64,000 nucleotides of DNA from Natronomonas halophila (GTDB lineage: Archaea > Halobacteriota > Halobacteria > Halobacteriales > Haloarculaceae). Shown here piece by piece: positions 1,571-49,536 of this stretch (positions are counted from its first letter, which is position 1; each line of letters starts with the position of its first letter). The position numbers were made by a program, and so were the translations under genes. The stretch is from the NCBI RefSeq assembly GCF_013391085.1, contig NZ_CP058334.1:1054001-1118000 (forward strand), written 5' to 3'. Below the pieces are notes generated by a model. It was not told where the DNA came from and made no database searches. It saw nothing but the letters and a program-made list of their open reading frames with translations.

Positions 1571-2078
1571 CACCTCCGAAGCCCTCAGCCGGCTGGCGGT
1601 CGCTAAGCGGGATATCCTCGCTCCGCTCGGATAGGGCCCGCTTAGCGACTAAACTGAACGCCACCCGGCTTCGCCCTTCGATTCCGCCAAGGAACCGCAC
1701 CACACGCCTCCCCAGCCGACTCCTTCCCTCACTCCGTTCGGTCAGTCGTCCCTCGCGCGCTGGCTGGCCGGACCCCCGCTCGCTGTCGCTCGCGAGGTCG
1801 GCCAGCGCGCGCCATTTAAATAATCAATCGGCCGGGAGCGCGTGCGGCCCCTTGGGCCGTCGCGCGACCCGGGGAAGGGCAGGGCTGTGCAGTTCCTGGT
1901 GTCCTCGTGAGCGACCGAAGGGAGCGAACGAGGGCTCAGGAGAGCTTGCTCTCCTGGTGGACTGAAAGGGCGAGGTGCGGAGGCGTTCAGTTTAGTCGCT
2001 ACTCAGGCCCTATCCGAGCGAGCGGAGCGAGCGAGGATATCCTGAGTAGCGACCGCCTCCGCGCCGAGGGCTTTCTAC
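1571..2078 (+). repeat. Long non-coding hairpin-rich element, copy 1
   Basis: This fills the gap between hisB and the helicase gene and has no credible reading frame. It starts CACCTCCGAAGCCCTCAGCC, and its right end, read on the minus strand, is an inverted version (GAAAGCCCTCGG...). Just inside each end is a long hairpin: 1599-1649 (arms GTCGCTAAGCGGG and CCCGCTTAGCGAC) and 1995-2053 (arms GTCGCTACTCAGG and CCTGAGTAGCGAC), with GAGCGAGCG-type inner stems. The interior has further hairpins, for example about 1758-1812, 1837-1867 and 1937-1957, and an AT-rich ATTTAAATAAT box at about 1813-1823 directly after GCGCGCC. Copy 2 at 48883-49416 has the same order. I do not recognise a named family; no transposase lies nearby and no target duplication is evident. 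Confidence 0.88.
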
Positions 2079-2142
2079 ATCATCGTGGTCAGCGAGTCGC
2101 CACGCTCGAGGTAGAAAGAAACGCGGAGATACCCATTCAATC

Positions 2143-13043: not shown

Positions 13044-16000
13044 TTACTGGCCGGCTACGGGTTCGATAGTTATCCGCATGTCGGTGCCTTCGACGTCCCA
13101 GTCGCGTTCGTGGCCGTCGGCGACGTCGCCGAACTCCGCGGCCCGCACCTCGCTGGCGATGAGGTCGCGATGTTCGTCGACGAGGCCGGCCACCCGGTCA
13201 TCGTCGATGTCGAGGTCGACGCGGATTTCGGCCTCGATATCGAGGTCGAGGTCCTTGCGCATCTCCTGGACGCGGCGGATGACCTCGCGGGCGTAGCCCT
13301 CCGACTCGATGTCCTCGGTCAGCGACGTGTCGACGTAGACGACGCCGCGGTCGTCGCCGTCGACGGTGAAGGCCGTCCCCTCAACCGTTTCGGGGGTGTC
13401 GGTGTTGAACGTCACCATCTCCTCGGTGAGTTCGACCTCGCGACCGAGTTCCTCGACGACGGCTTCCTGCAGCGTGTCGACGCGCTGTTCGGTGACGGTG
13501 ACGGCGTTGATGGCGTTCATCACGTCGCCGGCCTCGTCGCCGAACTTCGGCCCGAGGACGGACATGTCCGCGCGGGCGCTGTAACTGAGTTCTTCCCAGT
13601 CGGCGCCGGGTTCGACCAACTCGATTTCGCGGGCGTTCAGGCGGTCACGGAGCAGGTCGCGGTGCCGGTCGACGGCCTGTGCTGCCTCGTCGTCGTCCGC
13701 GGCCACGACCACGCGCGTGACGGGCCAGCGGAGTTTCCGCTCGGCCTGCTGGCGGGCGTTCGAGCCGGCTTCCTCGACGGCGTCGACGACCTCGATATCG
13801 GATTCGAGTTGCGGGTCGTGGAACCGTGCGTCGACCTCCGGCCAGTCGCACATGTGAACCGTCTCGTGGCCGGCATCGCCGGTCAGCGTGCCGTAAATCT
13901 CCTCGGCGACGAAGGGCGCGTAGGGCGCCAGCAGCTTCGTCGTCTCACGGAGGACGTGATACAGCGTCGCGTAGGCGGCCTGCTTGCTCTTGGAGTCTTC
14001 CTCCTCCCACATCCGCTCGCGGACGACCTGAATGTAGAACCGCGAGACGTCCTCGACGATGAACGAAAGCAGTTCGTCGAGACCCTTGTCCTGTCGGCGT
14101 TCCTCCCATTGGGTAGTCATCTCCCCGGTGACCGACTGGAGCCGCGAGAGGACCCACTCGTCGACGGTTTCGAGTTCGGCGTCGTCCAGCGAGACCGCCT
14201 CGGGGTCGAAGTCGTCCAGTCGCATGTACGGCAGCGGGAACCGGAAGACGTTCCAGAGGATGTTGAGGTCCCGCTGGCGGTTCTCCAGTTCGTCCCACGA
14301 GAAGCGCATGTCGTCGCCCTGCGGGGTCTGCCCGAGCAGGAACAGCCGCATCGGGTCGACGCCGTGCTGGTCGATGACCTCCTGGGGTTCGACGAGGATA
14401 CCCTTCGATTTGGACATCGTCCGGCCGTCGGGCATCAGCGCCCAGCCGTGCATCAGCACCTCCTTGTACGGAATCTCGCCGAGTGCGGCCGACCCCATGC
14501 CGAGTTGCGACCAGAACCACCCGCGGGTCTGGTCGTGGGCCTCCATGATGAGGTCCGCGGGCCACAGGTCCTCGAATTGCTCCTCGTCGCTCGGGTAGCC
14601 GAGCGTACCCCACGAGGCCACCGAGGAGTCGAGCCAGACGTCGAAGACGTCGGGGACGCGGGTGTAGGTCGTCCCGTCCTCGGTGATGGTCAACTCGTCG
14701 ACGGTGTCCTTGTGCAGGTCGACCGACTCGGGGTCGACGTCCTGGTCGACCCGCTCGGCGAGTTCCTCGCGCGTGCCGACGACGAGGGCGTCCTCGACGT
14801 CGCCCGACCAGTCCTCAGGAACCCAGATGGGGATGGGAATGCCCCAGTAGCGCTGCCGGGAGACGTTCCAGTCCGGCGACCCCTCGACGAAGTCACGGAA
14901 GCGGTTGTCGCGGGCCTCCTGAGGGTGCCATTCGCTGTCCTCGATGTTTTCGAGGAGTTCGTCTTTGATATCGGAGACGGTGATGAACCACTGGTCGGTC
15001 ACCATCTGGATGATGCCCGTATCGCAGCGCCAACAGTGGCCGTAGTCGTGGTGGACCGTCCCGCGCGAGAGGAGCAGGCCCTTCGCCTCGAGGTCGTCCA
15101 TGATCTCGTCGTCGGCGTCCTTGACGAACTGACCGGCGTACTTGCCGGCCTCGTCCTCGTAGACCCCGTCCGGGCCGACCGGACAGAAGATGTCGAGTCC
15201 GAGTTCGCGGCCGCGCTCGAAGTCGACCTCACCGTGGCCGGGCGCGGAGTGCACGAGACCGGTTCGGTCGGCTTCGACGTAGTCGGCCGTGTAGACCTGC
15301 AGGGCGTCGGCTTCGTTCGGTGAGTCCGGCACCTCGTCGGCCAGCGGGTGGTCGTACTCCCAGCCGACCATCTCCTCGCCCGAAACCTCCTCGACGATTT
15401 CGTAGTCGCCGTAGCCGCCCTCCTCGAGGACGTCCTCGACGCAGGACTCCTCGAGATAGAGCGTCTCCGTCTCGCCGCCGCGGTCGGCCTCGACGGCCAC
15501 GTAGGTCATCTCCTCGTCGACGGCGACGAAGGTGTTGGCGGGTACCGTCCACGGGGTCGTCGTCCAGATGACGAGATAGCCGTCGCGGTCCCGAAGGGGG
15601 AACTTCACGTAGATGGAGGGGTCCTCGACGTGGTCGTATTCGACCTCGTTGTTGGCGATGGCCGTCTCACACCGGGGACACTGGCTGATGGACCGCTGGC
15701 CCTGCTCGACGAGGTCGCGGTCGTGGGCCTGCTGGAAACCCCACCACGCGGCCTCCATGTACTCGGGGTCGACCGTCTTGTAGGGGTCGTCCCAGTCCAT
15801 CCAGACGCCGAAGGACTGGAAGTCCTCCTGAAGGCCGTCGAGTTGCTCCTCGGCGAAGGACTTGCACTCCTCGATGAACTTCTCCTCGCCGAAGGCCTCG
15901 ATGTCCTTCTTGTTCTCGAAGCCGAGTTCCTCCTCGACGCGCGTCTCGATCGGGAGGCCGTGCATGTCGTAGCCCGGCCGGTCGGTGACGTTGTACCCCT

Positions 16001-48817: not shown

Positions 48818-48882
48818 TACGGGCTATCGAATCGTTTCGGCTGTGTTCTTTTATAAATAGAGCGTGTCATCTCATCCGTTAA

Positions 48883-49416
48883 CACCACCTCCGAAGCCCT
48901 CAGCCGGCGGGCGGTCGCTGAGCGACATATCCTCGCTCCCTGCGGTCGCTCGGATAGTGGTCGCTCAGACGACCAAGCAAGCGCCTGCCGGTCGTCCGAA
49001 AGGCGCTTCGCGCCTTTCGTGATGACGAGAGAGCTTCGCTCTCTCGAACCACTTCGCCCTTCGAGTCCGCCAAGGACCGCAGCCACATGCCTCCCCAACC
49101 GACTCCCTCAGCCTCGCATTGCTCGGCTTCGGTCGTCCCTCGCGCGCGGGCACCCGACCGCCGTTCGCGAGGGCGCTCACGGCGGTCGGCCAGCGCGCGC
49201 CATTTATAAAAGACAGTTGGCCGGGAGGATGGGTCGGCCGCACGGCCGACCATCCGACCCGGGGAAGGGCAGGCCTGTGTGGTCCTGGCGGAATGAAAGG
49301 GCGAGGCCCGTCTGGCGTTTATATAGTCGCTAAGCGGGCCCTATCCGAGCGAGCGAAGCGAGCGAGGATATCCCGCTTAGCGACCGCCAGCGGGCTGAGG
49401 GCTTTCAAGGTGGTTG
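48883..49416 (+). repeat. Long non-coding hairpin-rich element, copy 2
   Basis: Same design and orientation as copy 1. Left end CACCACCTCCGAAGCCCTCA; right end on the minus strand CAACCACCTTGAAAGCCCTC. End hairpins are at about 48911-48972 (core CTGAGCGAC/GTCGCTCAG) and 49326-49384 (GTCGCTAAGCGGG/CCCGCTTAGCGAC). Interior hairpins are at about 48997-49019 and 49026-49047 (absent or different in copy 1), 49145-49199 and 49227-49255, with ATTTATAAA at 49202-49210. No credible gene. Confidence 0.88.
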
Positions 49417-49439
49417 CAGTCAGGAAGTCGCCCCCACGA

Positions 49440-49447
49440 GTTATAAA
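49440..49447 (+). promoter_or_regulatory. TATA box of the L18a-prefoldin-ftsY operon
   Basis: GTTATAAA lies between repeat copy 2 and the operon, giving a leader of about 65 bases before 49537. Inferred. Confidence 0.5.
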
Positions 49448-49536
49448 CAGATGTCGAGACGAATTTCCCAATCCACACGGGCTTCAACAGAGTCGGGTTA
49501 GGAAGATACTTCCCGCTCGCGCGCCGTGTCTCGTGT

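Follow-up and report, generated by a model that had tools for sequence, protein, structure and literature searches.

Two inverted structured units form a multicopy intergenic element, probably mobile, in Natronomonas halophila, with related arms in other haloarchaea

The window analysed here is a stretch of 64,000 nucleotides (positions 1,054,001 to 1,118,000 of contig NZ_CP058334.1) from the haloarchaeon Natronomonas halophila, whose 3.21-Mb single-contig genome is called G000 below. At the L18a-pfdA-ftsY locus, a repeated element, copy 2, is situated 131 bp upstream of L18a, and its outer TATA-like box points toward that gene. A helicase gene lies to the left of L18a, and the motif GGAAGATACTTCC is found at about 49501-49513, some 30 bp before the start codon of L18a.

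In the preliminary description, 48883-49416 was read as the second copy of an element, with the same outer ends and conserved inner blocks as the first. Genome search, arm model and folding all confirm this, and the ends and inner blocks of copy 2 are indeed common to copy 1 and to the G000 loci found. The two copies of the window (copy 1 at 1576-2075, copy 2 at 48892-49406) are, however, two of about 20 loci in G000 that match this sequence, the next-best copy having an E value of 1.7e-165. Identity of the other copies to copy 2 is about 71-86%. Most copies are about 450-520 bp long, from GAAGCCC to GGGCTTTC; L044, L047, L049, L050 and L054 are partial. The ends first given were too short: in 17 right ends of G000, 47 nt past the core are still conserved, and conservation ends at TTTATAAA, therefore the true element is about 600 bp long and covers approximately 48850-49447. 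The conservation profile of the left end is weaker than that of the right.

The element is made of two homologous units in inverted orientation, joined at a TTTATAAA (TATA-like) box (Table 1). Each unit, read outward, consists of a 5' domain, a linker and a 118-nt hairpin arm, giving two arms of opposite orientation per element and left and right ends that are homologous and inverted, that is, terminal inverted repeats. The order within the arm, again outward, is CCTGGYGGAMT, outer stem GAARG, loop GG-C-GA, inner stems with the tip, GA-G-GG and CTTYS, and arms terminate in GAGGGCTTTC or GAGGGCTTCG. The 5' domain of the right unit is of R type (GGCCGGGAG, a hairpin, GACCCGGGGAAGGGCAGG), that of the left unit of L type, and L and R units standing alone exist in other genera. 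The arm model, R1, recovers both arms of both window copies with E values of 1e-14 to 3e-29, matches that are not independent, since these arms were among those used to build R1. A weak R1 match at 14713-14820, in a stretch devoid of the arm motif, reads as chance. Directly behind 42 of 218 arms, tandem repeats were observed with a unit of 48-63 bp starting GCGCGCCGAGGGCTTTC, the period of which differs by genus (L110, L132, L160, L166, L224 and others).

Table 1. Features of the two window copies (window coordinates) and loci holding related sequences
Feature	Position or loci	Strand	Basis
Full element of copy 2, both outer TATA-like boxes included	48850..49447		Right-end conservation stops at TTTATAAA; sequence
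Core, CGAAGCCC to GGGCTTTC, 515 bp	48892..49406		Sequence and copy comparison
Left outer TTTATAAA	48850..48857		Sequence; left-end profile weaker than right
Left arm, outward on minus strand, split by nested repeat	48888..49078	-	R1 match 48888-49021, E 1.1e-14; CCTTGG..GAAGGGCGAAG in sequence
Nested two-hairpin repeat, about 60 bp (the extra hairpins)	48992..49051		Clean insertion relative to other arms; free-standing in other families
L-type 5' domain, left unit	49080..49201	-	Homologous to stand-alone L units of Halosimplex
Central TTTATAAA box	49203..49210		Sequence
R-type 5' domain, right unit, to GGGGAAGGGCAGG	49219..49273	+	Stand-alone R units L123, L134, L170, L203, L218
Right arm, 118-position hairpin arm, type A tip	49284..49410	+	R1 match, E 4.3e-27; covariation
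Right outer TATA-like box (TTATAAA)	49441..49447		Sequence, right-end conservation
Copy 1 left arm	1573..1691	-	R1, E 3.1e-29
Copy 1 optional double-hairpin module at CCTGG site	1900..1955		Module and site also in L046, L128, L226, L144
Copy 1 right arm	1953..2079	+	R1, E 8.8e-27
Small two-hairpin repeat, occurrences	Window 48992-49051; L032, L046, L053, L060, L062, L064, L066-L068, L070, L072, L074, L075, L210, L212
RPA-like gene loci with element-type ends	L114, L118, L142, L153, L155, L162, L172, L183, L190, L195, L209, L214, L215, L223, L232, L234

The fold of the arm is conserved. On an alignment of 31 arms (25 from G000 and 6 from relatives), RNAalifold predicted 37 pairs, 22 of which display compensatory double changes. 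Paired cells amounted to 97.3%, against 83.1% in shuffled and 31-43% in slid alignments, double-change cells to 150 against 43 in shuffled ones, and the covariation score was 0.388 against 0.128 (0 of 500); the rows being kin and the structure coming from the same rows, these figures are not probabilities, and it is their margin that carries the argument. By covariation, the arms have a conserved fold such as structured RNAs have, with related rows and a structure derived from them. Hardly any variation is seen in the internal loop GG-C-GA / GA-G-GG (kept in 198 of 216 arms, which had been selected by near-match to this loop). Single-strand folding energy is also far below that of shuffled sequences (z = -14.3 as DNA and -16.3 as RNA, no shuffle out of 100 being as good). 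Seven elements carry two type A arms; here the pairs within an arm hold (71-73 of 74), while the two arms agree with each other at only 45-58 of 74 positions, therefore each arm, a local hairpin, is its own unit. A cruciform of the whole element, into which a single sequence does fold, was rejected as the conserved form, because the arms match each other too poorly. On the outward strand, G.U exceeded A.C by 18 to 3, and by 18 to 5 in 36 mostly new arms, the best rows, chosen after the first count was known; the initial count on 55 rows, which included type B arms aligned to the type A model, was 28 to 19 and not significant, and none of these counts are of independent events. This bias suggests that folding takes place in one of the strands, be it RNA or single-stranded DNA.

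Around this core, parts are exchanged and added. Arm tips are of exchangeable types, 96 being A, 86 B and 35 other by a motif rule. The two simple hairpins noted in the left flank of copy 2, near 48997-49019 and 49026-49047, are present; together they make up one insertion of about 60 bp, whose sequence occurs once in the window and which, in the left arm, is flanked by GAAGGGCGAAG and CCGGC. They are a separate repeat nested in that arm, a situation encountered inside arms only at L031, L032 and L210. The same small two-hairpin repeat (TGGTTCGAGAGAGC..GCTCTCTCGTCATCACGAAAGGCGC..) is free-standing across many haloarchaeal families and sometimes nested in arms (Table 1). The extra hairpins of copy 1 are an optional double-hairpin module at the CCTGG site, likewise found in L046, in Halosimplex (L128 and L226) and in HArc-gm2 (L144). 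Growth and loss of hairpins had been taken for an expandable scaffold around a fixed core; exchangeable tips and the use of the copy 1 module site in other genera agree with this, whereas the hairpins of copy 2 are foreign to the scaffold.

R1 matches were obtained in 131 of 292 Halobacteria genomes, belonging to 49 of 77 genera. Match numbers per genome often stand for at least that many, and R1 is blind to strongly elaborated arms, so that its counts are lower bounds. Within the genus, they fall between 39, in G000, and zero, in several genomes that are nearly complete. When the genome collection was scanned for the pattern, the matches listed were all haloarchaeal records, and 15 haloarchaeal plasmid records matched. 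Spread by viruses was rejected, as nothing matched the pattern in viral contigs and no hit was obtained in phages. No Rfam family reached the gathering threshold in the window, and six related loci compared to Rfam at E up to 1 produced a single match at chance level (E 0.65). The element family was not described in the literature searched; it apparently constitutes a large, undescribed family of structured mobile DNA.

None of the 22 copies checked was inside a gene (by an ORF heuristic), and flanking genes occur in all orientations. Upstream of serS, where G000 has copy L037, no arm is present in 13 congeners. Nine share the neighbours on both sides, and there the flanks CTTCGGTCTGTCGTCAAC and CGACACGACTTTGCC are close together, versus about 650 bp apart in G000. 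The serS site of the congeners is a clean empty site, and the element was inserted in G000. Other copies are older: the genes on both sides of L046 also flank loci in G009 and G015, and L050 has one neighbour in common with L197. No recent movement is apparent, as copies are so diverged from copy 2, and no target duplication was seen at the ends inspected, the copies being old and the exact junction uncertain.

No transposase was linked to the element, or found between similar ends in any locus read. Genes for RAYT-type Y1 transposases (PF01797) number one in G000, none in the arm-rich but incomplete genomes G010, G012 and G014, and three to four in G002, G017 and G019, all without R1 match; ten PF01797 loci had no arm within 1.5 kb. 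The arm-only copies L044, L049 and L050 had raised the idea of 5' truncation by target-primed reverse transcription. This was rejected, as no reverse transcriptase gene (PF00078, RVT_1) was detected in 40 relatives, G000 included, with positive controls, and reverse transcription is an unlikely route. In L061, at about 1440-1490, a GC-rich hairpin (CCCCGCCCTGAAGGGCGGGG) that resembles IS605-type right ends was observed just upstream of a half element.

The only gene found between similar ends in the loci read encodes an RPA-like OB-fold protein. Some 15 loci have an L-type left end separated by approximately 1.4-1.7 kb from a right-end arm, with this gene in antisense between them. A 1.5-kb "giant RNA" was rejected as a candidate because its conserved region contains the antisense gene. 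RPA-like OB-fold genes flanked by the same kinds of ends are listed in Table 1; many are on secondary replicons. In Haloarcula hispanica, plasmid pHH126 has an arm next to the RPA-like gene. The protein gave weak RPA/SSB matches in Pfam and NCBIfam, and among PDB entries the OB domain of MM0293 matched it best (2ken/2kbn, E 1.1e-15). Structure comparison, which covered residues 186-288 only, showed that this predicted C-terminal domain agrees with the MM0293 OB domain (Z 13.9 over 95 residues, the mean confidence of the predicted model being only 63.7). An arm (R1 E ≤ 0.03) accompanies the gene, on the opposite strand and in most cases about 440 bp upstream, at 19 of 30 loci chosen by protein profile, a proportion that overstates the link between arm and gene, the profile being derived from arm-linked proteins. 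The G000 gene has one in-frame stop, and several arm-rich genomes (for example G087, G139 and G294) lack any RPA-like gene other than that of the host. Long-form loci sometimes share right flanks beyond the arm, thus the long form need not be a discrete transposon. The protein, sole mobilising candidate found, may be a single-strand helper rather than a catalyst.

The element is probably mobile and non-autonomous, and belongs to a haloarchaeal family that extends over the class; the head-to-head units, each a 5' domain with an arm, would be moved in trans via a folded single strand. We commit to mobilisation in trans. The data show the conserved fold, the one-strand bias, the inverted pairs, the empty site and the intergenic position; recognition of the folded arm, a partner protein and the chemistry of movement we infer: a protein acting in trans would recognise the folded single strand of the arm, much as REP/REPIN and IS200/IS605-type hairpins are recognised, and would move, or have moved, the element. 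Selection would then preserve the fold while letters drift, and added hairpins would be tolerated outside the invariant loop and stems. Some positions are common to other species (L046 with G009 and G015), as for old or useful elements, which counts against a mobile element.

Such conserved positions, several of which are known, also speak for the strongest rival, a functional RNA family that happens to spread. The arms would be 3' domains of non-coding RNAs, each unit an RNA gene with TATA-like box, 5' domain and arm, and the G000 element two divergent RNA genes with a shared central promoter, the spread being incidental. Covariation and outward-strand bias, TATA-like boxes at centre and ends, and the nearly invariant internal loop (in arms selected by near-match to it) are in keeping with this. 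Yet the copy number varies from none to dozens inside one genus, sites are found empty, Rfam has no such family and the same arm is joined to different 5' domains, so that we hold this reading to be possible, although unlikely. A MITE of the ordinary kind, derived by deletion from a DDE transposon, with a target duplication and long inverted repeats at its termini, would also be small, intergenic and multicopy with inverted ends. It is improbable, given that neither a target duplication at the ends inspected nor a transposase between similar ends in the loci read was seen, and given the existence of single units with non-inverted ends, and the preservation of a local fold rather than of end sequence.

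A role at the promoter of L18a-pfdA-ftsY, for which the element would be conserved, had been proposed for copy 2. Its distance from L18a and the outer TATA-like box directed at this gene are as a regulator would have them, but GGAAGATACTTCC, seen also at L238-L254 and L256, is retained at the L18a start in G000 and in all 17 congeners read, although 15 of these have no arm in the 3 kb covered. Compared with serS, this site is less clear-cut: the helicase gene adjoins L18a in no congener. G014 has a weak arm remnant only, 1.4 kb upstream, and G010 a differently built two-arm member which ends about 330 bp upstream of L18a. It was a motif check that revealed the G010 member. At this G010 locus (L248, 380-1175), two family members are in tandem, with very elaborate arm tips that R1 does not recognise. 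A member upstream of L18a in G010 as well may reflect shared preference or ancestry, and would suit a regulator; other copies, however, adjoin unrelated genes in all orientations. The effect on the ftsY operon promoter thus finds no support, and a regulator conserved for that role is extremely improbable. Conservation of a core beyond the ends, which the preliminary description expected, was found; the conserved position in relatives that it also expected is mostly absent.

Among known systems, the REPINs and REP-RAYT of bacteria (PMC3116915, PMC2817692) are similar in having hairpin units, single or as inverted pairs, that are intergenic and multicopy with a conserved fold. The arm here is 118 nt long, versus 20-40 for theirs, and the present family is archaeal, has separate 5' domains and no linked RAYT-type Y1 transposase. 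In haloarchaea, the MITEs, PATEs and SMRs of Haloquadratum (PMC3119063) are likewise repeats without transposase. PATEs have near-terminal palindromes and no target duplication; by description they are descended from elements of IS605 type and are without inverted ends (PMC3119063), which the composite element has. SMRs are described as small, with inverted ends and no known mobiliser; their insertion sites are palindromes within other elements (PMC3119063), a habit seen here in the nested 60-bp repeat. In plants, Helitrons with RPA-like genes (PMC4683698) also carry along a single-strand-binding gene and have many gene-less relatives, but they are eukaryotic and no Rep/helicase was seen here, so that this is a resemblance only. 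Compared with RPA/SSB OB-fold proteins such as MM0293, the long-form protein is alike in its C-terminal domain; it also has a helical N-terminal part, and its gene is antisense between element ends. That the family represents a class of archaeal mobile element without known transposase or reverse transcriptase, in which the arm is recognised single-stranded, the RPA-like protein is the sole factor that the long form encodes and two-arm derivatives devoid of the gene spread through genomes, is a further conjecture that we regard as decidedly doubtful.

A repeat family of strong covariation, undescribed in the literature searched and found in 131 of the 292 haloarchaeal genomes sampled, would explain many intergenic hairpins of the class that so far have no explanation, and would be an archaeal counterpart to the REPIN-like populations of inverted hairpin pairs. 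With structured repeats linked to RPA-like genes on secondary replicons, what moves the transposase-free repeats of haloarchaea becomes a testable question.
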